From positions 1 through 64,000 of the forward strand of contig NZ_JAELVQ010000007.1 in the NCBI RefSeq assembly GCF_016428595.1: a DNA stretch of 64,000 nucleotides, read 5' to 3'. The notes under the pieces were generated by a model that was given only the letters and a program-made list of their open reading frames with translations, made no database searches and was not told the origin of the DNA. Below, in pieces: positions 1 to 64,000 of this stretch; the first letter of the stretch is position 1, and each line of letters begins with the position of its first letter. This DNA comes from Snuella sedimenti. Lineage in GTDB: Bacteria > Bacteroidota > Bacteroidia > Flavobacteriales > Flavobacteriaceae. Position numbers and translations under genes: made by a program.

Positions 1-262
1 AACCTTGGTTTTGACCAAAGTTATTCTGTAAATCAAATCAAAAAATCAAAGAACGTATCGTATATGTTGTATTTACTGCATTTTTAGAGAATTAAACTTT
101 AACAAACGCATCACTACTAAGTGTTGCTCTGTAATCAATATTTTTACCTTAGAGAGGTGTCTCGATGAAAACCATTTTACATCTGTTACAATATTATCAT
201 GTAACTAATGTTTAACATGATTTTTATCATACTTTTTAATCGTTTATAGCCTTAATTTTATT
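1..262. other. Leading stretch without a supportable gene
   Basis: I find no convincing coding region here. The only plus-strand reading frame with an ATG is a 16-codon frame at 175-225 with no family resemblance, and the minus-strand frames close within a few codons. The stretch is AT-rich and probably holds the promoter of the CBS-domain gene that follows, but I see no clear TTG-N19-TANNTTTG match. Confidence 0.5.
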
Positions 263-283
263 TTGAAATTAAAACCGATAGAC

Positions 284-700
284 ATGAAAAGAAGAACGCC
301 AGTATCCGAAATAATGAGTAAAGATGTTATCGCATTACGTCGGTCAGAAGATTTAATCAGAGCAGAAATGCTTTTTAAAAGGCATAAAATTAGACATATA
401 CCCGTAGTGTCAGGAGAGTCTGTTATCGGTATGTTGAGCTATACAGATTTATTGAGAATAAGTTTTGCAGATGCCACAGAAGATGAACATAATGTAGATA
501 CGGTAGTATATAATATGTTTACCATCGAACAGGTAATGACAAAAAACATAACCAGTATTTCCAGTAATACCAGTATTAAAGAAGCCGCCGAAATATTAGC
601 CGAAAAGGAATTTCATGCGTTGCCTGTAGTCGATGATTCTATTTTAGTCGGCATTATAACTACAACCGATTTAATAAAGTACTTGCTCGAACAGTTTTAA
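284..700 (+). CDS. CBS-domain pair protein
   Basis: Small cytosolic protein made almost entirely of two CBS domains (roughly residues 5-60 and 80-138 from the ATG), a Bateman module that in other proteins binds adenine nucleotides. The pattern MKRRTPVSEIMSKDV then VMTKNITSISSNTS shows the two repeated CBS halves, each followed by a hydrophobic I/L-G-x-x-S/T-x-x-D-L/I motif (GMLSYTDLL, GIITTTDLI). I start at the ATG at 284; a TTG at 263 would add seven residues with no support. There is no fused enzyme or channel domain, so the target is unknown. The stop overlaps the end of the convergent rpe gene by 4 bases, so the two genes share a very tight 3' junction. Confidence 0.85.
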   Translation: MKRRTPVSEIMSKDVIALRRSEDLIRAEMLFKRHKIRHIPVVSGESVIGMLSYTDLLRISFADATEDEHNVDTVVYNMFTIEQVMTKNITSISSNTSIKEAAEILAEKEFHALPVVDDSILVGIITTTDLIKYLLEQF

Positions 701-1359
701 GAATTAGCCAGTAACCTTAAATTTTTAATGGTCTCTATTTGATTGTCACTTTTAAATACATAGCTTCCGGCAACCAAAACATCGGCACCAGCATCAACAA
801 GGGCTTTAGCATTTTTGCTGGTTACACCACCATCAATTTCAATGCGAGTAGAAGCCTTTTTACGAGTAATAAGGTCTTTAAGTTGATTTACTTTATTGTA
901 AGTGTTTTCGATAAAACTTTGGCCTCCAAAACCAGGGTTTACACTCATAATACAGACTAAATCAATATCGTTTATCGTGTCCTCTAAAACATTAATGTTG
1001 GTATGTGGATTTAAGGCAACGCCTGCTTTCATGCCTTCGGCTTTAATAGCTTGAAGAGTACGGTGTAAATGGGGGCATGCTTCATAATGTACCGTAAGTA
1101 TATTACTCCCTAAATTAGCAAACGTTTTTATATAGCGATCGGGGTCTATAATCATTAAGTGCACATCAATGGTTTTTTTTGCATGTTTAGAAATCGCTTC
1201 TAAAACGGGCATTCCAAATGAAATGTTAGGAACAAATACACCGTCCATAATATCGATGTGAAACCAGTCCGCATCACTATGGTTTACCATTTCTATGTCA
1301 CGTTGAAGATTAGCAAAATCGGCTGCTAAAACAGATGGCGCTATTAATTTAGAGTTCAT
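697..1359 (-). CDS. rpe: Ribulose-phosphate 3-epimerase
   Basis: Interconverts D-ribulose 5-phosphate and D-xylulose 5-phosphate in the pentose phosphate pathway. It is a 220-residue TIM barrel of normal length. The N-terminal APSVLAADF block, metal ligands in HIDIMDG (His34, Asp36) and VHLMI (His67), the MSVNPGFGGQ phosphate loop and the EIDGGV strand near residue 175 are all present. It starts at ATG 1359. A TACTTTTG box on the minus strand at 1383-1390 could be its -7 element, but I find no TTG at the expected distance. It converges with the CBS gene. Housekeeping; confident call. Confidence 0.96.
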   Translation of the reverse strand: MNSKLIAPSVLAADFANLQRDIEMVNHSDADWFHIDIMDGVFVPNISFGMPVLEAISKHAKKTIDVHLMIIDPDRYIKTFANLGSNILTVHYEACPHLHRTLQAIKAEGMKAGVALNPHTNINVLEDTINDIDLVCIMSVNPGFGGQSFIENTYNKVNQLKDLITRKKASTRIEIDGGVTSKNAKALVDAGADVLVAGSYVFKSDNQIETIKNLRLLANS

Positions 1360-1411
1360 TATGTATCAATAAAAGTGTTTCGCAAAAGTAATGGTTTTGC
1401 TTTTATGTTTT

Positions 1412-1819
1412 CTATTTTCTACCTATAAAATTCTCAACCATTGCAATAACTTTATTTGCTGATTTACTGTCGGCATCTTTTAACCATTCTAAATAATCAT
1501 TGAGATTATTAAGTTCATTCCTATTATCTATAGTTGTGAATCCGAAGTTGTAATCCTCAAAAATGCGTTGTTCAACAGTAGTATTTATGACTTTAATAAT
1601 ATTTTTGTGCCTACTATCTAAACTAATTCTTTTAAAAGTATTGTCAACCATTTCTTGTTCGCCTTCCAAGACTTGTAAAAAGTTGCCATTTTTGTAAATA
1701 AGGATTCCAGTTATGTTATGTTTAAGGTTATTTGTTTTGGCTTTGTTGTATAAATTTAGAAGATTGTCTTCGGACTTAAAATTTTGTGAATCACTTATGT
1801 AGCATATGGTTTTGAGCAT
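1412..1819 (-). CDS. Stand-alone BLUF-domain blue-light sensor
   Basis: A 135-residue protein that is essentially one BLUF domain, the flavin-binding photoreceptor fold. The residues known to contact the flavin in BLUF proteins fit: Tyr7 in CYIS, Asn31 in the NNLKHNITG stretch and Gln49 in GNFLQVLEG. The semi-conserved Trp/Met region is replaced by YNFGFTT. The C-terminal ~35 residues are helical and may form the cap or dimer contact. No output domain (EAL, GGDEF, cyclase) is fused and no neighbour is an obvious partner, so the output is presumably protein-protein, as in short BLUF proteins such as PixD. Family assignment is confident; the physiological role is unknown. Confidence 0.9.
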   Translation of the reverse strand: MLKTICYISDSQNFKSEDNLLNLYNKAKTNNLKHNITGILIYKNGNFLQVLEGEQEMVDNTFKRISLDSRHKNIIKVINTTVEQRIFEDYNFGFTTIDNRNELNNLNDYLEWLKDADSKSANKVIAMVENFIGRK

Positions 1820-1930
1820 GTGTTCTTGAAGATAAGTTAATAGTCTCTTTTACTAAGATATAAAAATAGAATCATAAAGAAAGTTTTTTCTTTCGTTTAT
1901 CCTTTATTTAAAAAGATATTGTTAAAAACA

Positions 1931-2030: not shown

Positions 2031-2894
2031 CTAACCTAAATATGTTTTTAAAATTTTACTTCTTGAAGTGTGTTTAAGTCTTCTAATAGCCTTTTCTTTA
2101 ATCTGGCGAACACGTTCACGAGTTAAGTCAAAAGTCTCTCCAATTTCCTCAAGTGTCATTGGGTGTTGATTACCTAAACCAAAATACAAACGAATAACAT
2201 CGGCTTCACGAGGCGTTAAAGTTTCAAGAGCACGTTCAATTTCTGTTCGTAAAGATTCGTGTAATAATTCTTTATCGGGGTTTGGAGACTCCCCACTATT
2301 AAGAACATCATATAAGTTAGAGTCTTCACCTTCAACCAAAGGCGCATCCATACTTACGTGACGACCTGAGTTTTTCATAGACTCCTTAACATCGTTAATT
2401 GTCATATCTAACTCTTTAGCTATTTCTTCGGCACTTGGTGGGCGTTCGTGACTTTGCTCTAAAAATGCAAACGTTTTATTTATTTTATTAATAGAACCAA
2501 TTTTATTTAGAGGCAAACGTACAATACGAGATTGTTCTGCCAAAGCTTGGAGAATGGATTGACGAATCCACCAAACGGCATAAGAAATAAATTTAAAACC
2601 ACGTGTTTCGTCGAAACGCTGCGCAGCTTTAATTAGACCTAAATTACCTTCGTTAATTAAATCGGGTAATGTTAAACCTTGGTTTTGGTACTGTTTAGCA
2701 ACCGATACAACGAAACGTAAATTAGCTTTTGTTAATTTTTCTAAAGCAACTTGATCGCCTGCCTTAATACGTTGTGCCAATTCCACCTCTTCATCTGCCG
2801 TAATTAGGTCAACTTTGCCTATTTCTTGAAGATATTTGTCTAACGAAGCGGTTTCTCTATTGGTAACCTGCTTTGTGATTTTAAGTTGTCTCAT
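2031..2894 (-). CDS. rpoD: Primary RNA polymerase sigma factor (RpoD/SigA)
   Basis: Housekeeping sigma-70 factor in the short Bacteroidota form: 287 residues, no region 1.1 and no large non-conserved insert. Region 1.2 is seen around residues 17-45, the core-binding and -10 recognition region 2 at about 55-115 ([39 protein letters not shown]), region 3 at about 125-200 and the region 4 helix-turn-helix at about 246-275 ([27 protein letters not shown]). In this phylum this factor reads TTG-N19-TANNTTTG promoters, and two perfect examples occur in the window (rpmB and guaA). Monocistronic, with its own terminator downstream. Confidence 0.97.
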
Positions 2895-3160
2895 TTAATT
2901 TTAATGTTCTCCTGTAAATTATAGGGGTAAATAATGCTTTATTAGGTTATACGTATAAAAGAGAGTAAATGTTACAAGGTGGGTGACAATTTTGTTAAGC
3001 TTATGATTTCTTTAACATTTTGTCAAAGTTATCAATGAAGGTATGGCTGTTATGCTCAAAGGAAAGTTATTTTTTATGATTGGTATGTTATGCTGAAAAA
3101 AGTTTTATTAGCCTTAACAGGTAAAAAAACAATTGATTTTTATATTACAATGCTAATGTA
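2895..3160. other. Intergenic region between rpoD and pnp
   Basis: AT-rich leader region of rpoD. I see no open reading frame of note and no clear promoter match. It ends at the pnp terminator. Confidence 0.4.
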
Positions 3161-3162
3161 AA

Positions 3163-3193
3163 AAAGCCGTTTCCAATAATTGGAAACGGCTTT
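3163..3193 (-). terminator. pnp terminator
   Basis: Long perfect stem AAAGCCGTTTCCAAT with its complement, flanked on the minus-strand 3' side by a run of T. Strong intrinsic terminator of pnp; the flanking A and T runs also allow some bidirectional action. Confidence 0.9.
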
Positions 3194-3218
3194 AATATTA
3201 TAAGATGATAAGAAAAAC

Positions 3219-5468
3219 TTAGTCTTCTCGTTTGTCTTCTCTCGGTCTTCTGTCGTCACGACGATTGTCGCGTCCACGATTATCTCTACCACGATTATCA
3301 CGTCCACCGCGGTTGTTATCTCTTGGCGGTCTTGCTACATAACCTTCAGGTTTTGGTAAAATCGCTTTACGGGACACTTTCTCTTTACGAGTTCTTGGGT
3401 CAACGCCAAAGTACTTCACGTCAAAAACATCTCCCATATTAACAACATCACTTACATTTTCAGTGCGTTCCCAAGCGAGTTCGCTTACGTGTAATAGTAC
3501 TTCATTTCCAGGAGCTTCTACATATTCAACAACAGCACCAAAGTCAAGCATTTTAATTACTTTTACTTCATAAACACTGCCAACTTCTGGCTTAAATTTT
3601 AGGGACTCAATTTTAGCTAAAACAGCATCAATACCTTCTTGATCAGTACCTAGAATTTCAACAATACCCTCTTCGGTTACAGGGTCTTCATTGATAACAA
3701 TAGTTGTATTGGTCTCTTTTTGCAATTCCTGAATTACTTTTCCTCCAGGACCAATAAAGGCTCCAATAAGGTCATTAGGTAAAATAGCCGTTACCATTTT
3801 AGGTGCATGCGATTTTACTTCAGTATTTGGCTGCGAAATGGTATCTGTTATTTTTCCTAAAATATGTAAACGCCCATCACGTGCTTGCTTTAAAGCATTT
3901 ACAAGAATCTCGTATGATAATCCTTTTACTTTTATGTCCATTTGACAAGCTGTAATACCATCAGCAGTACCAGTCACTTTAAAGTCCATGTCGCCTAAGT
4001 GATCTTCATCACCCAAAATATCGGAAAGTACAGCGTATTTTCCAGATTCAGTATCGGTTATTAGACCCATGGCAATACCAGAAACAGGTTTTTTTAATTG
4101 TACCCCCGCATCCATCATAGCCATAGTTCCAGCACAAACGGTTGCCATAGATGACGAACCATTGGATTCTAATATTTCGGATACAACACGTACAGTATAT
4201 GGACAATCTTTGGGAACCATACCTTTTAAAGCACGTTGGGCTAAGTTACCATGTCCTACTTCACGACGTGATGTGCCACGAATTGGTCTTGCTTCTCCTG
4301 TAGAAAAAGGAGGGAAGTTATAATGTAAGTAGAAACGCTCTTCACCTTCATAAGATGGCATGTCTATTTGGTTAGCTTCTCTCGAAGTACCTAAAGTGAC
4401 AGTCGCTAAAGCTTGCGTTTCCCCACGGGTAAAGATTGAAGATCCGTGTGTGGACGGTAAATAATCAATTTCACACCAAATTGGTCTGATATCAGTGGTT
4501 TTACGACCATCTAAGCGTAAACCTTCATTTAAGGTTAAATCTCTAACAGCATTCTTTTCAGCTTTACTGTAGTATTTAGAAATTAAGTCTCCAAAATCTT
4601 CTTGCTCTTCTTCAGAAAAAGAGGCGATGATTTCTTCTTTAATTTCAGCAAAGGCAGCACTTCTTTCTTGTTTAGAAGAACCTGCTTTAGCTACGGCATA
4701 CACTTTGTCGTATGCCATATCGTGTATTTTTTTTGCTAAATCTTCGTCCTCACGCTCTGATTCGTATTCACGCGTTTCTTTTTTGCCAAACGCTTCAGCT
4801 AATTTAACTTGAGCCTCACACTGTACTTTAATGGCCTCGTGTGCAAATTTAATGGCTTCAGTCATTTCTTCTTCAGAAATTTCATCCATTTCGCCTTCTA
4901 CCATCATAACAGAATCTGCAGATGCACCAATAACCATGTCGATATCAGATTCTTCTAATTGCTTAAAGGAAGGGTTAACGATAAACTCACCATTAATACG
5001 GCCAACTCTTACTTCAGATATTGGGCATTCAAATGGGAAATCGGATAATTGAATGGCTGCTGAAGCTGCCAAACCAGCCATGGCATCGGGCATTACATTA
5101 TCATCGTGTGACATTAATTGAATCATCACCTGTGTTTCGCTGTGATAATCTTTAGGGAACAATGGGCGTAACACACGGTCTACTAGACGCATTGTTAATA
5201 CCTCACCATCACTGGGTCTTGCTTCTCTTTTAAAGAAACCGCCAGGATAGCGTCCTGCTGCAGCAAATTTTTCACGATAATCTACCGTTAGTGGTAAAAA
5301 GTCAACATCAGCCGATTTGTAATTGGAAACAACTGTACATAACAACATACAGTTTCCAGATTGTACCACAACGCTACCATGCGCTTGTTTTGCTAATTTT
5401 CCAGTTTCAATAGAAATTTCTCTACCGTCACCTAGGTCTATGACCTCTTTAAAAACTTTTGGAATCAT
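3219..5468 (-). CDS. pnp: Polynucleotide phosphorylase with Arg/Asp-rich tail
   Basis: 3'-5' phosphorolytic exoribonuclease of mRNA decay. Domains in order: RNase PH 1 (about 10-225), helical linker, RNase PH 2 (about 310-545, with FPPFSTGE and [10 protein letters not shown]), KH domain (about 560-615, [10 protein letters not shown]) and S1 domain (about 625-695, [19 protein letters not shown]). After S1 comes a low-complexity tail (about 707-749) of repeated DNRGR and RGG-like units, making the protein 749 residues against about 700 for many homologues. Such basic tails are common in this phylum and likely add RNA affinity (inference). It lies 167 bases downstream of rpsO, the classical rpsO-pnp order, but with an rpsO terminator between them. 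Confidence 0.97.
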
Positions 5469-6034: not shown

Positions 6035-6892
6035 TTATGCCCTAAGCGGTTGATTCGTAATTAAATCGATATATTGATTTACTTTGTTTTTTAGTTCTTT
6101 ACGTTTTGTTATAAAGTCTAGGAAACCGTGCTCTAGCAAAAACTCTGAAGTTTGGAATCCTTCAGGTAATTCTTTGCCTGTGGTATCCCTTACTATACGA
6201 GGTCCAGCAAATCCTATTAAAGCCCCAGGTTCACTAATGTTAATGTCCCCTAACATGGCAAATGAAGCAGTGGTACCTCCAGTTGTTGGGTCTGTACATA
6301 ACGAAATATATGGTATACCTGCATCGGCCAATTGCGCTAATTTTACCGATGTTTTAGCAAGTTGCATTAGCGATAGTGCGGCTTCCATCATTCGAGCACC
6401 TCCAGATTTTGAAATAATCATTAAAGGGATGTTCTTCTTTAATGAATAATCAGCGGCACGTGCAATTTTTTCACCTACAACACTTCCCATCGATCCTCCA
6501 ATAAAACTAAAGTCCATACAGGCGATAACTAAATCTTTCCCTTTAGATTTTCCAACAGCGGTACGAACTGCATCTTTTAAATTGGTTTTGGCTTGTGCTG
6601 CTTTTAAACGATCGGGGTAATTTTTGGTGTCGACAAATTTTAAAGGATCCTTAGACTCTAAGTTGGTGTCTAATTCTTTAAATTTATTGTCATCAAAAAG
6701 TATTTCAAAATATTCTTTACTGCCTATACGTACATGGTAACCATCCTCGGGACTTACATAGAAGTTCTTTTCAAGTTCTTCGGCATCAACAATTTTTCCA
6801 GTTGGCGATTTATACCACAATCCTTTTGGAGTGTCTTTTTTTTCCTCTGTAGAGGTGGTGATCCCTTTTGTTTTTCTTTTAAACCAAGACAT
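6035..6892 (-). CDS. accD: Acetyl-CoA carboxylase carboxyltransferase beta subunit, zinc-ribbon cysteines lost
   Basis: Beta half of the carboxyltransferase that makes malonyl-CoA for fatty acid synthesis; its partner AccA is not in the window. Length (285) and core motifs fit: [30 protein letters not shown]-like [15 protein letters not shown]. The N-terminal zinc ribbon found in E. coli AccD aligns to residues 25-55, but the four cysteine positions read Ser29, Gly32, Ser47 and Asp50, while the surrounding frame (ELEKN, YHVRI) is kept. The only cysteines left are in the catalytic core. I recall the same pattern in other flavobacterial AccD proteins, so it is probably lineage-wide rather than damage. 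Confidence 0.95.
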
Positions 6893-7131: not shown

Positions 7132-7294
7132 TGAACTCATTTTGACTTTTTCCAATTGGTTAAAAAATTGCTCTTTTGAGCCTGCTTTTCGTCATTTTCT
7201 CATTCCGTAGCCCTGCTATGCAACTTAAAAATGCTTTCCATCAAGCTCAAAATAGCTAATTTTCACTTCAATCAAAAAAGTCAAGATGGGTTCA
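7132..7294 (+). repeat. P163 palindromic repeat, copy A
   Basis: A 163-bp imperfect palindrome with ends TGAACTCATTTTGACTTTTT and the near-complement ending GATGGGTTCA. At its centre is GTAGCCCTGCTATG, a small hairpin with one G-T pair. It has the same length and lines up base for base with the copies at 31018 and 46238, but in sequence it is a separate subfamily. It contains no coding capacity. Confidence 0.85.
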
Positions 7295-7328
7295 ATGAAA
7301 AAATCCTGTTAAATACAGGATTTTTTCA
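7294..7328 (-). terminator. fbaA terminator hairpin, split on its distal side by an F143 element
   Basis: Stem AAAAAATCCTGT / ACAGGATTTTTT with a five-base loop, downstream of fbaA on the minus strand. The stem would continue to a perfect 16-bp AATGAAAAAATCCTGT pair if the 143-bp element at 7329-7471 plus one TGAAA copy were removed. The element therefore appears to have inserted inside the outer part of this palindrome. Confidence 0.8.
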
Positions 7329-7471
7329 CACGTTTAAATTTTAGTAATTAATTGATTTTGTTGTAATTATAAAATTAAGAACGTGTGCAACCACTCCTTA
7401 CACTCGTTCTCACATTAAAAATTTTAAACATTTCCTTTTGTGAAGTAATTTTTAAAATTTCTTAATGCTCG
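7329..7471 (-). mobile_element. F143 repeat element, copy 1 (full length)
   Basis: A 143-bp non-coding element reading on the minus strand from CGAGCATTAAGAAATTTT to ACTAAAATTTAAACGTG, flanked on both sides by TGAAA (7472-7476 and 7324-7328 as TTTCA). It is nearly identical to copy 2 at 17307, differing at only a few positions. It carries the mini-ORF MKRALRNFKNYFTKGNV (7424-7477, using the flanking ATGAAA as start) and a hairpin GAGAACG / CGTTCTC-type stem. It lies between the fbaA stop and the fbaA terminator. Confidence 0.85.
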
Positions 7472-7494
7472 TTTCATTTATATATTAAGGTATC

Positions 7495-13947: not shown

Positions 13948-14023
13948 GAACTTATCTTGACTTTTTTGATTGAAGTGAAAATAGCAATTTTTTAACCAAT
14001 TGGAAAAAGTCAAGATGAGTTCA
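13948..14023 (-). repeat. P163 derivative B with central deletion
   Basis: A 76-bp palindrome with ends TGAACTTATCTTGACTTTTT and AAAAAGTCAAGATGAGTTCA. It matches the two outer arms of copy A in the opposite orientation, with the central ~87 bases missing. The join falls at AAAATAGCAATTTTTT. Confidence 0.8.
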
Positions 14024-14102
14024 CTATATTTGTCCTGTTTTTTTATGATAAAACGTAAATAAAAGGCGTTAATAAATTATAAATGCAACATTCGCTAATG
14101 TG

Positions 14103-14210
14103 AATGTTTAAAATTCCTGCCTACCGGCAGGTAGGTTTAATGAGAGAGCGTAGCGGTTACGTGTTCTCTATTTTTATTAAATTATGCATAATTACAAAAA
14201 TCTAAACGAG
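14103..14210 (+). mobile_element. F143 repeat element, copy 4 (right part, diverged, with nested palindrome)
   Basis: Matches the right two thirds of F143 from AATGTTTAAAATT through the GAGA...TCTC hairpin to AAAATCTAAACGAG, directly followed by TGAAA. The left part is degenerate. A 20-base palindrome, CCTGCCTACCGGCAGGTAGG, interrupts it at 14116-14135. The element ends exactly at the trkA start codon, supplying the G of its GTG. Confidence 0.65.
14116..14135. repeat. GC-rich 20-bp palindrome nested in F143 copy 4
   Basis: CCTGCCTACCGGCAGGTAGG, nearly self-complementary and much richer in GC than its surroundings. It resembles short palindromic repeats I recall as dispersed in Bacteroidota genomes; only one copy is present in this window. 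Confidence 0.55.
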
Positions 14211-15559
14211 TGAAAATAATTATTGCTGGGGCAGGTGAAGTTGGATTTCATTTAGCAAAATTATTGTCCTACGAATCTCAAGAGATTACATTGATAGATA
14301 CTAACAAGGAAAGTTTGGCTTATGCCGATGCTCATTTAGATATTAAAGTAATTAGGGGAGACGCCACATCGATAGCTATTTTAAAAGATGCCCGTGTTGA
14401 TAACAATGATTTATTTATAGCGGTTACCTCTAGTGAAACGACCAATATTACAGCTTGTGCTTTGGCAAAACGATTGGGGTCTAAGAAAACAATTGCCAGA
14501 ATCTCTAATACCGAATTTATAAACCATAAGGATGAAGTTGGGTTTACTAAGTTTGGTATAGACGAGTTAATATCACCAGAATCTTTAGCTGCTTCCGAAA
14601 TAGAGTTGTCTTTAAAGCAATCTTCTTTTAATGACACTTATGAGTTTGAAGAAGGGGCCTTAACCATGGTTGGTTTAAATTTATCCAGATCGGCATTATT
14701 TGTTGGGAAAACGGTTAAGGAAGCTGCTGCTATATTTCCAGAAATACATTTTGTGCCCATAGCAATCCAGCGTTTTGGGACGCAATACACTATTATTCCC
14801 CGGGGTGATACTAAATTTAAAAGAGGGGATAATGTAGTGTTTATAACTTCTGAAGGAGGAGCCGAAGAACTTTGTAGACTTACCGGAAAGACCAATCGGG
14901 AGATTAGGGATGTAATGATTCTTGGGGGAACCAAAATAGGGTTTAAGGCAGCTAGGGATTTAAGCGAAAAGGGATTTAATGTAAAGATACTGGAAGAGAA
15001 TAAAGAACGTGCATTCGACATAGCCGATATGTTGCCCAATGTTTTGGTTATTCATAGCGATGGGCGTAATGTAGATTTACTTGATGAAGAGAATATTAGT
15101 GAAATGGATGCTTTTATAGCGGTTGCGGCAAATTCCGAAACCAATATCATGTCCTGTCTGGTAGCAAAATCCAAAGGGGTTAAAAAAACGATAGCCCTTG
15201 TCGAAAACATGGATTATTTTGAGCTGTCCCATTCGATAGGTATCGAGACGTTAATAAACAAAAAACTACTTGCCGCCAATAACATCTTTAGGTATATAAG
15301 AAAGGGAGAAGTTGTAGCCATGACCAAACTTAGTAACATGAATGCCGAGTTACTGGAGTTTGAAGTTAAAGCAACATCCGCCATTTGTAATAAAGTTATT
15401 AAAAATATCGATTTTCCGCGTTCTGCCATTATAGGAGGTGTTATTAGAAATGGATTGGGAGTTATAGCGCTAGGGGATTTTAAGATTCAAGAAGGCGATC
15501 GTGTCGTGGTTTGCAGTTTACTTCAGTCCATAAAAGGCGTAGAAAAATTATTCCGCTAG
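14210..15559 (+). CDS. trkA: Trk potassium uptake regulatory subunit TrkA
   Basis: Cytoplasmic gating subunit of the Trk K+ transporter, 449 residues. Two RCK halves in tandem: Rossmann NAD(H)-binding domains at about 1-125 (IIAGAGEVGFHLAKLL, then acidic LIDTN) and about 232-345 (VMILGGTKIGFKAARDL), each followed by a TrkA-C domain (about 140-225 and 365-449). The GTG start gives MKIIIAGAGEVGF, the usual N-terminus, and is placed exactly against the end of an F143 repeat. trkH follows after 3 bases, so the two form an operon. Confidence 0.96.
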   Translation: MKIIIAGAGEVGFHLAKLLSYESQEITLIDTNKESLAYADAHLDIKVIRGDATSIAILKDARVDNNDLFIAVTSSETTNITACALAKRLGSKKTIARISNTEFINHKDEVGFTKFGIDELISPESLAASEIELSLKQSSFNDTYEFEEGALTMVGLNLSRSALFVGKTVKEAAAIFPEIHFVPIAIQRFGTQYTIIPRGDTKFKRGDNVVFITSEGGAEELCRLTGKTNREIRDVMILGGTKIGFKAARDLSEKGFNVKILEENKERAFDIADMLPNVLVIHSDGRNVDLLDEENISEMDAFIAVAANSETNIMSCLVAKSKGVKKTIALVENMDYFELSHSIGIETLINKKLLAANNIFRYIRKGEVVAMTKLSNMNAELLEFEVKATSAICNKVIKNIDFPRSAIIGGVIRNGLGVIALGDFKIQEGDRVVVCSLLQSIKGVEKLFR

Positions 15560-17264: not shown

Positions 17265-17677
17265 ATGAGTTTTGGAGTTGTACAATCAGCAATAACTTCT
17301 ATGAAACGAGCATTAAGAAATTTTAAAAATTATTTCACAAAAGGAAATGTTTAAAATTTTTAATGAGAGAACGAGTGTAAGGAGTGGTTGCACACGTTCT
17401 CAATTTTATAATTACAATAAAATCAATTAATTACTAAAATTTAAACGTGTGAAAAATAATAGAAAACTATTGTCAAAAAAGAAAAGAAAATAAAGTATTA
17501 GATGGTAACTATGTTAATGTGGGATTAAAAGACTTTCCCAAAGCTACACCTGAAGCATTACAAAATTTAAAAGAAAAACTGCAACGGGAGCAGAAGCAAA
17601 GTACTCTTTTTAATACTGTTTTATTTATAAGTATAGTTGTAGTGGTAATGTTGTTTGGATTTTATTTTATGTCATAA
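17265..17677 (+). pseudogene. Small membrane protein gene, split by F143 copy 2 and frameshifted
   Basis: The start MSFGVVQSAITSMK matches the N-terminus of a small one-helix membrane protein family I recall from flavobacteria. After codon 14 the frame enters an inserted F143 element (17307-17449) and stops at 17352-17354. If the element and one TGAAA are removed, the reading continues as NNRKLLSKKKRK and stops; one base out of frame it continues to a C-terminal helix (about NTVLFISIVVVVMLFGFYFMS split over 17620-17674) ending at 17677. The gene is therefore broken by an insertion and by a one-base shift in an A-rich run near 17480-17500. Alternatively, a shorter product is still made from a downstream start, but none is evident. 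Confidence 0.7.
17307..17449 (+). mobile_element. F143 repeat element, copy 2 (full length)
   Basis: A 143-bp element bounded by TGAAA at 17302-17306 and again at 17450-17454, inserted inside codon 13-14 of the small membrane-protein gene. Mini-ORF MKRALRNFKNYFTKGNV at 17301-17354. Hairpin stem GAGAACG (17367-17373) with CGTTCTC (17395-17401). Right end is ACTAAAATTTAAACGTG. Nearly identical to copy 1. Confidence 0.88.
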
Positions 17678-53242: not shown

Positions 53243-53265
53243 CTAAATACAGAATTTCGGTTTTT

Positions 53266-53279
53266 GACCTTGTGAGGTC
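53266..53279. repeat. Hairpin GACCT-TGTG-AGGTC
   Basis: Five-base perfect stem with a four-base loop inside the same intergenic repeat block. It is short, so low weight on its own. Confidence 0.35.
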
Positions 53280-53402
53280 AAAATGAAACGAGCGAAACCT
53301 GTACTGAGCGCAGTCGAAGTATACCCCCTATGGCTCTGCCTCGGGGATAGTTCGTTTCAAGAAATTCTTTATTTTAATGTTTCAAAATGATAGCACAAAC
53401 AA

Positions 53403-61135: not shown

Positions 61136-61140
61136 TGAAA

Positions 61141-61284
61141 CGAACATTAATAAAATTTAAACATTTTTTCACAAAAGGGAATGTTTAAAATTTTTAATGT
61201 GAGAACGAGTGCAACAAGAGCTTACATTCGTTCTTAATTTTATAATTAACATATAGTCAAAATAATTACTAAAATTTAAACGAA
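61141..61284 (+). mobile_element. F143 repeat element, copy 3 (full length)
   Basis: 144 bp flanked by TGAAA at 61136-61140 and 61285-61289. It is more diverged from copies 1 and 2 than they are from each other, but keeps the mini-ORF (MKRTLIKFKHFFTKGNV from GTG at 61135), the GAGAACGAGTG hairpin with changed partner strand, and the right end AAAATTTAAACGA. Its last base is the A of the mnmA ATG. Confidence 0.82.
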
Positions 61285-62471
61285 TGAAAAGAGTAATAAT
61301 CGGACTTTCAGGAGGGGTAGATTCTAGTGTGGCAGCCTTTTTGTTAAAAGAACAAGGCTACGAAGTGATTGGGCTGTTTATGAAAAACTGGCATGATGAT
61401 TCTGTGACCATTTCTAACGAATGTCCGTGGTTAGACGATAGTAACGATGCCATGTTGGTTGCTGAGAAACTGGGAATACCATTTCAAACGGTCGATTTGA
61501 GCGAACAATATAAAGAGCGTATAGTTGATTATATGTTCCACGAATACGAAAAAGGAAGAACACCAAATCCAGATGTACTTTGTAATAGAGAGATCAAGTT
61601 CGATGTCTTTATGAAAATTGCTTTAGAGCTTGGGGCCGATTATGTCGCTACCGGACATTATTGTAGAAAAGGTGTTATAGAAAGGGATGGTAAGGAAATT
61701 TATCAGTTATTGGCAGGGGTAGATGGAAATAAAGATCAGTCGTATTTTTTATGTCAGTTGTCACAAGAGCAATTGGCCAAATCCTTATTCCCAATAGGAG
61801 AGTTAACAAAACCGGAAGTACGTGATATAGCAACTAAGCTAGATTTAGTAACTGCAGAGAAGAAAGATTCGCAAGGACTATGTTTTATAGGAAAGGTAAA
61901 ATTACCAGACTTTCTTCAGCAACAATTAAAACCAAAAGAAGGCCTTATTGTAGAAGTACCAAAAGACCAGAATATTTATAAGCAAACAGCGCCTGTTTTT
62001 GATTCGGAAGAAGACAAGTTAAAATACTTATCTCGTAAAATAGATTATAAAGTCGATTTAGGTAAGGTTGTAGGGAAACATCAAGGAGCACATTATTTCA
62101 CGAAGGGACAACGTAAAGGCCTTGCTGTTGGCGGAACAGTAGAGCCACTTTTTGTAATAGATACCGATGTTGAGGATAATGTTATATATACCGGACAGGG
62201 TAAAGAACATCCAGGGTTGTTAAAAAAAGCCTTGTTTGTTGCTAACGATGAGTTACACTGGATTCGCGAGGATTTGGCTTTGCAATCTGGTCAGACCATG
62301 CAGGTAAAAGCTCGTATTAGATATCGCCAGCCCTTACAAACGGCAACATTGCATAAGGTAGAAGGCGGTTTGTACGTAGCGTTTAATGCCTTTCAATCTG
62401 CCATTACCGAAGGACAATTTGTTGCGTGGTACATAGATGACGAGTTAATAGGTTCCGGAGTAATTTCGTAA
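61284..62471 (+). CDS. mnmA: tRNA-specific 2-thiouridylase
   Basis: Thiolates U34 of certain tRNAs; 395 residues. PP-loop [18 protein letters not shown] at the start, first catalytic Cys in [13 protein letters not shown], second in [12 protein letters not shown], and the [17 protein letters not shown] and C-terminal beta-barrel domains. The ATG is rebuilt at the edge of F143 copy 3, so its leader now contains the element; a TAAATTTG box at 61049-61056 upstream of the element may be its -7 region. Confidence 0.96.
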
Positions 62472-62496: not shown

Positions 62497-64000
62497 GTGA
62501 AACGAGCATTAACAAATTTTAAGGATTTCTTCATAAAACGATTGCTATTTGTTGGTCTGCTGTGCTTTCAGTTTTATGCTTCTGCCCAACAAGATGCTTG
62601 GGTGTATATGGTTGATAAAGAAAACGTAACAGCTTCCATTGCCAATCCAATTACAATACTTACCCAGAAGGCCATAGATAGAAAAGCAGTTCATAACGTA
62701 GCTATTGATGAGCGGGACGTTCCTGTAAACGAAAGTTATATAGCCCAGTTAAAAAATAGTACAGGTATTACCGTTATGGCCAAATCCAAATGGTTTAATG
62801 CAGTACACGTTAGAGGAAGCCAACCAGATATTCAGGCTCTTGAGAACCTAGCATTTGTAGAGCATGTAGATTTTGCAAATAAAAGTTTGAACACTTCAAA
62901 AGCAGTTAGAAAAGTAAAGGTTTCGAAGTTTAAAGAAACCTACGCCATGTTCAATTACGGTAATGCCTCCAATCAAATAGAAATGTTTAATGGCGATAAA
63001 TTGCACGAGGCCGGTTATACAGGAACAGGTATGACCGTTGCTGTTTTAGATGCTGGCTTTCCAAATGTAAATACCATGGTCGCTTTTAAGCGCTTAAGAG
63101 ATGCAGGTAACCTAAAGGGAGGTTATGACTTTGTGAACAGAGAGGATAATGTGTATGCAAATACAACAAGTAACCATGGCACGTTGGTACTAAGTGATAT
63201 GGCTGGGTATATCGAAAACCAATTTGTAGGAACCGCACCCGATGCATCCTACTATTTGTTTATAACCGAAGATGCCCTTAGTGAAAACCCAGTAGAAGAA
63301 AGTTATTGGGTAGAAGCAGCTGAGCGTGCGGATAGCTTAGGGGTAGATGTTATAAACACTTCCTTGGGATATACAACTTTCGACAATCCGAATTATAACT
63401 ATACAACATCCAATATGGATGGTAAAACAGCCTTTATAACCCGTGGAGCCAATATAGCTTTCGAAAAAGGCATGTTGCTTGTAAATTCTGCAGGAAACTC
63501 TGGAAATGATAGTTGGGGGATAGTAGGGGCTCCTGCCGATGCAGCGGGTGTTTTTACTGTTGGAGCGGTTGATGCTAGCGGAAATTATGCAGCATTCAGT
63601 TCCAGGGGTAGTGCTTTGCAACCAACCCATAAGCCAGATGTAGTTGCACAAGGACAAGCAAGTTATGTGATATTTGAAAACGGGGCAATTGGGACAGCAA
63701 ATGGAACATCGTTTAGTTCTCCTATTATGACAGGAGGTATGGTTTGTTTGTGGCAAGCTTTACCAGATAAAACAAATGCAGAGATTATGCAATTGGCAAG
63801 AGCATCGGCATCTCAATATGAAATGCCCGATTATAATTTAGGTTTTGGTATTCCTAATTTGGAATTGGCACTTAATATAGCTCTAGATGAAGCCCCAAAA
63901 GATGATTCGGATAACCTGCTCATATATCCAAACCCTGTAGAGGCTTCTTTATTTGTTAAAACAGCATCAGATAATTTTCCAATAACTATTAATCTTTTTG
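62497..64000 (+). CDS. S8 family serine protease with type IX sorting domain, partial at window end
   Basis: Subtilisin-like protease, at least 501 residues, cut by the window edge. From the GTG at 62497 the chain begins MKRALTNFKDFFIKRLLFVG; the signal peptide ends ASAQ. Catalytic triad: Asp185 in AVLDAGF, His227 in SNHGTLV and Ser405 in NGTSFSSP. The last visible part, LLIYPNPVEASLFVKT, is the start of a T9SS type A C-terminal domain, so it should be secreted by the PorT-dependent system. The first 12 or so codons match the left end of F143, so the true start could be the later part (IKRLLFVG...); see findings. Confidence 0.88.
   Translation, partial: MKRALTNFKDFFIKRLLFVGLLCFQFYASAQQDAWVYMVDKENVTASIANPITILTQKAIDRKAVHNVAIDERDVPVNESYIAQLKNSTGITVMAKSKWFNAVHVRGSQPDIQALENLAFVEHVDFANKSLNTSKAVRKVKVSKFKETYAMFNYGNASNQIEMFNGDKLHEAGYTGTGMTVAVLDAGFPNVNTMVAFKRLRDAGNLKGGYDFVNREDNVYANTTSNHGTLVLSDMAGYIENQFVGTAPDASYYLFITEDALSENPVEESYWVEAAERADSLGVDVINTSLGYTTFDNPNYNYTTSNMDGKTAFITRGANIAFEKGMLLVNSAGNSGNDSWGIVGAPADAAGVFTVGAVDASGNYAAFSSRGSALQPTHKPDVVAQGQASYVIFENGAIGTANGTSFSSPIMTGGMVCLWQALPDKTNAEIMQLARASASQYEMPDYNLGFGIPNLELALNIALDEAPKDDSDNLLIYPNPVEASLFVKTASDNFPITINLF
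62503..62538 (+). mobile_element. F143 left-end fragment forming the S8 protease start
   Basis: CGAGCATTAACAAATTTTAA and the following bases match the first ~36 bases of F143 (8 mismatches over a 44-base comparison including the flanking TGAAA). Only the left end is present, fused in frame to the protease signal peptide. Confidence 0.6.

Follow-up and report, generated by a model that had tools for sequence, protein, structure and literature searches.

What are the short, similar sequences that stand between two TGAAA pentamers in this stretch of the Snuella sedimenti genome, and how did they come to lie there? The window, that is, the whole stretch of 64,000 nucleotides that was analysed, belongs to contig 55 of the 4.37-Mb draft genome. 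An earlier note on the window had described three full copies of an element family, F143, and its coordinates, strands and TGAAA borders all proved exact when the sequence was read again (Table 1). Copies 1 and 2 are 97.4% identical, and copy 3 is 84.5% identical to either.

F143 Copies in the Window

Two shorter pieces had also been assigned to the family, at 14103–14210 and 62503–62538. Both are indeed F143, but their extents had to be redrawn: the former is part of a degenerate longer copy, and the latter is a left end only (Table 1). The neighbours of these copies are varied. Copy 1 has the end of a class II fructose-bisphosphate aldolase gene on one side and, on the other, a terminator-like hairpin that was recognized by eye. 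The final base of copy 3 is the A of the ATG of an mnmA-like gene (61284–62471), and a TrkA gene (14210–15559) starts on the right-end GTGAAA (14210–14215) of the degenerate copy. In the subtilase gene, the left-end fragment itself forms the N-terminus of the protein (VKRALTNFKDFFIK...) and is followed by a signal-peptide-like stretch.

Table 1: Coordinates of F143 and associated features. Positions are those of the window, except for the last three rows, which refer to locus L067 (C2).
Feature	Position	Strand	Remarks
F143 copy 1	7329–7471	-	143 bp; TGAAA at 7472–7476 and 7324–7328
Degenerate longer F143 copy	14066–14216	+	Profile match, profile columns 12–157
Target hexamer ATGAAA, left of copy 2	17301–17306	+	Read from the sequence
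17-codon ORF from left ATGAAA of copy 2	17301–17354	+	ORF reading
F143 copy 2	17307–17449	+	143 bp; intergenic; neighbours are a trkH-like gene and, on the opposite strand, an aminotransferase gene
Predicted stem 1	17311–17365	+	CATTAA-AAATTTTAAA / TTTAAAATTT-TTAATG
Predicted stem 2	17367–17401	+	GAGAACG / CGTTCTC; loop around AGYGGTTRCA mostly conserved
Predicted stem 3	17402–17441	+	AATTTTATAATTA / TAATTA-TAAAATT
Right-end TGAAA of copy 2	17450–17454	+	Preceded by the G of the element (GTGAAA)
F143 copy 3	61141–61284	+	144 bp; TGAAA at 61136–61140 and 61285–61289
F143 left-end fragment only	62497–62541	+	In frame with the subtilase gene
cas9, end	169–1902		Named by eye
cas1	2651–3556		Named by eye
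cas2	3821–4168		Named by eye

Other repeats were seen in and around these places. The degenerate copy is broken by a 20-bp GC-rich imperfect palindrome (14116–14135) of the CCTGCCTACCGGCAGGTAGG type, which is found at about the same place in stem 1 of a second F143 copy, on C6 near 29,100. Another repeat (CATCTTGACTTTTTTGATTGAAGTGAAAATTAGC...) also occurs near F143, at about 7230–7290 on the minus strand and at 13950–14020 in the window, on C55 near 202,000 and on C16 near 170–270. A different one, which begins with ATGAAACGAGCGAAACCTGTACTGA, continues later with TTCGTTTCA and contains an inverted TGAAACGA pair, is present at 53262–53360 of the window and on C4 (L118, about 1660).

Copy Number and Distribution

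F143 is a real family, and a larger one than first described. Candidate places were taken from matches to the end patterns and from a BLAST search whose query contained the pentamers; a profile applied to the stretches around the listed places gave at least 92 matches, 81 near-full and 11 partial. A match was called near-full if it reached profile columns 5 and 155 and so extended into both pentamers, a rule that favours copies with intact flanks; the 11 partial matches among the 92 are excluded. BLAST with a 153-bp copy as query gave 42 matches, of which 41 were near-full (40 of the 161 candidates were scored), and in this list, which also finds inner matches, none of the 41 ends more than 2 bases before the ends of the query. 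The left-end pattern was found at 98 places in the genome versus 5 for the reversed pattern and the right-end pattern at 135 versus 1, which excludes chance.

The 81 near-full copies are 130–147 bp long, clustering at 142–144 bp (54 copies) and 133–137 bp (21 copies). The double border of the window copies holds up elsewhere, with an exact TGAAA on both sides in 72 of the 81, and one tandem pair (C12:193051–193344) has a single TGAAA common to both members. The ends are not inverted repeats of each other, as one begins with CGARCATTAA and the reverse complement of the other with CACGTTTAAA.

The family extends well beyond S. sedimenti. With two candidates scored per genome, 94 of the 299 Flavobacteriaceae genomes searched (82 of 236 genera) were matched with E no higher than 0.001; short AT-rich pieces make up many of the weaker matches. 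An exact 25-base pattern was found in at least 70 stretches of the GTDB species collection; among the matches listed are Arenibacter, Maribacter, Aquimarina, Tenacibaculum, Polaribacter, Galbibacter, Algibacter and others, which we take to be Flavobacteriaceae. Phage (50,697) and plasmid (72,556) records gave no F143 BLAST match and viral contigs no exact match to the pattern, and carriage by phages, plasmids or viruses was rejected on the basis of these collections. A search of the open-licence PubMed Central literature retrieved no description of the family.

Empty Sites and Recent Copies

The mobility proposed in the earlier note was borne out by comparison with orthologous loci. In Maribacter arenosus, F143 sits where the stop codon of the upstream gene overlaps ATGAAA. 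In the congener G301, the flanks of this site (78% and 75% identity) meet at one ATGAAA, with a 5-base overlap, TGAAA; none of the other 10 of the 12 genomes searched gave a match to both flanks. The M. arenosus locus L158 and locus L132 of G257 are the same site with an identical element. In Algibacter marinivivus, a UspA-like gene is preceded by ATGAAA-element-GTGAAA. Ten Algibacter genomes were searched and nine loci were read besides the filled one: seven have a single ATGAAA with the flanks adjoining, the left alignment ending 5–14 bases early in two of them, L280 is without the element but reads ATAAAA, and the junction of L287 could not be aligned. Comparing empty with filled sites shows that the left hexamer owes its A to the target, whereas the element supplies the G at the right end.

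Six 100%-identical F143 copies stand at different places in Aquimarina sp. U1-2, which points to a recent burst. An autonomous version was sought by pairing left with right ends at spacings above 260 and below 4000 bp; the matches listed were chance pairs, orphans and internally deleted forms, with no long version among them, and the non-autonomous reading holds within this search. That F143 is mobile, with a target of the kind described below, is in our view almost certain.

The Target and the Flanking Pentamers

The left hexamer of the 81 own copies is ATGAAA in 77, GTGAAA in 2 and AAGAAA in 2, and the right end is GTGAAA in 50 and ATGAAA in 23, so that 73 of the 81 read (G/A)TGAAA there. 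The 97 copies from relatives, which include 6 second views of one site, have ATGAAA on the left in 89 cases and GTGAAA or ATGAAA at the right end in 52 and 38, respectively; for loci L157–L226 the left TGAAA was part of the search pattern, whereas the A before it was not. Conservation runs to this sixth base, A, on the left side only, and a comparison of flanks found no strong consensus to the right of the insertion. A deviant pentamer was seen in 16 of the 178 copies (left 5, right 13), and in none of the 16 was the same deviant present on both sides. Because the deviants never match, the right pentamer appears to be borne by the element, although later mutation could mimic this pattern.

The earlier note had left a choice between a 5-bp duplication and a 5-bp target. 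The second of these is the one that the sequences favour: a short target, the right copy being supplied by the element, would fit the unmatched deviants (0 of 16) and the left-only sixth base better than a duplication made by a staggered cut. The usual sequence does not separate the two, as empty sites have one TGAAA and either a duplication or an element-borne copy would yield the same filled site. The duplication model corresponds to a MITE of the cut-and-paste (DDE) kind that strongly prefers TGAAA, and for this, one TGAAA in the empty site and two in the filled site would also be expected. Such an element should, however, copy unusual targets to both sides, which none of the 16 deviants shows (here too later mutation could blur the picture), and it should not have a sixth conserved base on the left only. 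F143 further differs from the MITE of a DDE transposon in having no terminal inverted repeats and no long version among the matches listed, and we consider this explanation improbable. The target is refined to ATGAAA, which is mostly a start codon, with the right pentamer as the start that replaces it.

Start Codons and Downstream Genes

The earlier reading had not noticed that in most cases the flanking pentamer belongs to a start codon. An ORF of 60 codons or more starts from the right-end codon in 53 of the 81 own copies and 90 of the 97 relative copies, as compared with 235 of 991 and 403 of 1609 (24–25%) for all RTGAAA in the same DNA. This excess over the baseline indicates that F143 shifts the start codon of the gene to its own right end. 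The downstream proteins in relatives begin mostly with MK or VK, belong by eye to ordinary-looking genes and look unrelated to one another. A start codon is not required for insertion, since 28 of the 81 own copies, among them those at 7329 and 17307, open no long ORF directly; 10 of these 28 run straight into another element of this kind, and 9 of the 10 then reach such an ORF. Preference for the target together with selection against insertion within genes can explain the association, and a separate preference for start codons is unneeded.

One could also read F143 as a conserved 5′ leader (a riboregulator) that spread long ago, is no longer mobile and has been kept for gene control, as the proportion of relative copies leading into genes and the conserved fold described below would suggest. 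Yet congeners have empty sites, identical copies stand at unrelated places, some copies open no gene, and the genes that are opened look unrelated. In addition, the promoter element TANNTTTG is present in none of the 81 own copies, which led us to reject a promoter role for F143. A leader of this kind is very improbable.

If F143 is a mobile element with the target ATGAAA, insertion would occur on the 3′ side of the hexamer, and the old start codon would then open no more than a short decoy ORF, at the left end. The gene would gain a new start (GTG or ATG, then AAA) behind the A-rich stretch at the right end of the element, and with ATGAAA so frequently marking the start of a gene (Met-Lys), insertion would relocate gene starts. 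Upstream stop codons that overlap the start (ATGA) would also be preserved, and a right end with ATGAAA could be targeted again, giving stacked elements. The right end (AAAATTTAAACG) is A-rich, with an A at -6 and none at -3; in Flavobacterium johnsoniae, starts are described as A-rich and without Shine-Dalgarno sequences (PMC6847099).

The left-end ORF of 17 codons is present in 68 of the 81 own and 65 of the 97 relative copies. Among 39 divergent sequences, only 21 keep the 17 codons and 15 differ in frame. A selected leader peptide was rejected and the ORF is probably incidental, because its frame is not kept across species.

As a parasite, an element that inserts in start codons and yet leaves the gene active would be unusually mild. 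F143 would repeatedly rewrite the leaders of real genes, here those of the mnmA-like gene and trkA in the window and of cas2 on C2 (the last named by eye), and could account for GTG starts, for long leaders and for start codons called at the wrong place in Flavobacteriaceae.

Predicted Fold

Copy 2 is predicted to fold into three consecutive stems (Table 1), with z scores of -4.4 as DNA and -4.0 as RNA; 4 nt separate the left end from the first stem, and 8 nt the last stem from the right TGAAA. The fold was compared across 39 sequences left by an 88% identity filter from those of the 178 copies whose bodies measure 130–146 bp. Paired cells make up 93.2% of 1510, versus 91.7% in shuffles (0 of 500 reach the observed value) and at most 51.1% in slid versions, and the covariation score is 0.103, versus 0.078 in shuffles and at most 0.039 in slid versions. 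Pairs changed on both sides number 9 against a mean of 4.0 in shuffles, but this is not above the slid controls (6–12). In stem 3, an exchange of A-T to T-A at columns 119/149 is found in 11 of the 39 sequences. RNAalifold alone gave six pairs only, all in stem 2, and counts of G-U versus A-C gave no signal above shuffles as to the folding strand. The three-stem fold, as modelled, is conserved.

The loop of stem 1 (about 17330–17345 in the window) contains TTCA, the complement of the TGAA of the target, in 19 of the 39 sequences versus 3.8 after shuffling of the loop letters, the sequences being related. At the tip of the stem, TTC also pairs with GAA. The TTCA could be a guide to the target, or merely the tip of the stem.

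Candidate Mobilizers and Known Systems

F143 poses the question of what moves high-copy elements in genomes without a recognizable Y1 transposase. IS200/IS605 elements, moved by a Y1 TnpA, insert 3′ of a short sequence, carry hairpins and make no target duplication. F143 resembles them in its 3′ insertion and hairpins and differs in that no TnpA with F143-like ends was seen. An IS200/IS605-like mobilizer, suggested at the outset, found no backing in the genomes: the Y1 transposase domain (PF01797) was matched in 7 of 19 chosen carriers, hardly more often than in genomes without an F143 match in the search scoring two candidates per genome (4 of 12). It was matched in 8 of 10 further carriers. 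The 12 unmatched carriers of the 19 include A. marinivivus (G264), which has a species-specific insertion. No F143 copy is present in any of the 50 Y1 loci read, each about 3 kb long and RAYT-like ones included, and the ends of two IS200-type genes that were inspected are unrelated to F143; the intact transposase with shared ends that had been suggested as a thing to look for was thus not present in these loci and genes. A Y1 transposase was rejected as the mobilizer for this lack of association in the genomes and loci covered.

The closest parallel that we found is that of the PATEs (palindrome-associated transposable elements), IS605-type derivatives of the archaeon Haloquadratum walsbyi (PMC3119063). 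These are too short for a transposase, lack inverted terminal repeats and target duplication, and have near-terminal palindromes, a targeting sequence of 4-5 bases at the 5′ end and core-deleted short forms. They are mobile although an intact IS200-type tnpA is nearly absent, and the same puzzle is stated there. Like PATEs, F143 has no inverted terminal repeats, is too short for a transposase (130–147 bp) and has palindromes near both ends. Unlike them, it is bacterial, its target is a start-codon hexamer and its right end rebuilds the start codon, and no IS605-type element sharing its ends was found among 50 Y1 loci. We suggest that F143 works like a PATE and do not claim membership, because no Y1 transposase could be tied to it.

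The reading that we favour, with a probability of roughly 0.7, takes F143 to be a miniature mobile element without coding capacity, which inserts 3′ of ATGAAA, carries its own right-end (G/A)TGAAA and, like IS200/IS605 elements and PATEs, travels as a single strand in folded form. Counting against this reading are the Y1 results above, a stem 1 that begins no more than 4 nt from the left end, and the weaker of the fold comparisons. The enzyme would be supplied in trans, and we infer that it reads RTGAAA as both the left and the right cleavage site. For the single-strand (HUH-type) mechanism taken by itself, which is drawn by analogy, the odds appear somewhat short of even.

RTGAAA could also be recognized on one side by another route: a tyrosine recombinase whose crossover spans 5 bases, or an insertion by way of RNA, of the reverse-splicing type, with pairing between ATGAAA and the element. 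The one-sided 6-base target, the conserved fold, the lack of a Y1 match in many carriers and the TTCA of the stem 1 loop would all suit such a route. It is opposed, however, by ends that fit neither group I nor group II introns by the general rules for these, by the absence of an Rfam match at the loci tried and by the 20 of 39 sequences without TTCA, and we hold this route as possible though unlikely.

HEARO RNAs sit 3′ of ATGAA or GTGAA, which is the same kind of site as that used by F143. F143 might in this light be a relic of an IscB/HEARO or TnpB element, with its fold as the remnant of a guide RNA. HEARO/IscB elements (PMC9755519) are structured, as is F143. The latter differs in having neither Rfam nor RRXRR matches: the HEARO family (RF02033) was not matched at E up to 5 in 8 loci, nor at the gathering score in 8 (15 loci in all, L084 being common to both), and no RRXRR protein (PF14239) was found in the genome by a search that matched no control genome either. 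On these grounds, the HEARO/IscB identity was rejected, and a relic of this sort is quite improbable.

REPs are elements of 20–40 bp, most of them in GTAG- or CGTC-tagged superfamilies. F143 is like REP/REPIN-RAYT systems in its high copy number, its palindromes and its non-autonomous nature, and unlike them in its length of about 143 bp, in its RTGAAA borders instead of GTAG or CGTC tags, and in its absence from the Y1 loci examined, RAYT-like ones included; it was not assigned to them. In L068 (C45, about 6430–6500), a palindrome, AGACCTGTCAGGTTTTCAAAACCTGACAGGTCT, adjoins a 188-aa RAYT-like gene and is perhaps the REP of that gene.

Debris, Further Families and Stacking

Internally deleted F143 units have two starts 30 nt apart (L199, L168, L170, and C7 with ATGCAA at left); as the two are in frame with the gene, ten residues are gained before the signal-peptide-like start. 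The F143 left end itself is the beginning of the subtilase at 62497, of a lipoprotein-like gene (C10) and of an ORF on C17. Seven of ten ORFs with F143 pieces were counted as genuine, the other three looking like chance matches. New protein N-termini in front of signal peptides could have arisen from F143 in this way.

Four more short families (B–E), 83–180 bp in the copies seen and with bodies that differ from F143, were noticed, only beside places fetched for F143. They start after RTGAAA and end with TAAACAG-ATGAAA or a near variant; one of their right-end types has 11 exact matches in the genome versus 0 for the control. They occur in the S. sedimenti genome, for example at L076 from 1232, L084 from 1323, L317 and L124 near 1200–1300, some sharing ACCnACCnAnATGATnA and CATCTGACC, and similar pieces are present in Aquimarina (L178, L211, L216) and Tenacibaculum (L215). 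F143 and families B–E stand in series before genes, as in F143-B-D-gene (C6) and cas1-D-F143-cas2 (C2). A broader reading, which we find doubtful and offer tentatively, would have unrelated short elements of Flavobacteriaceae moved by one undescribed non-Y1 system that recognizes and rebuilds RTGAAA; start sites would be the habitat of the whole element community, and its debris would turn into 5′ leaders and protein N-termini.

The CRISPR-Cas locus L067 (C2) also has a 205-aa RAYT-like Y1 gene (1941–2558) between cas9 and cas1. Two short elements lie between cas1 and cas2, the F143 start being about 1.1 kb from the RAYT gene, and nine regularly spaced 46-base matches to CRISPR-DR50, below the cut-off, come after.
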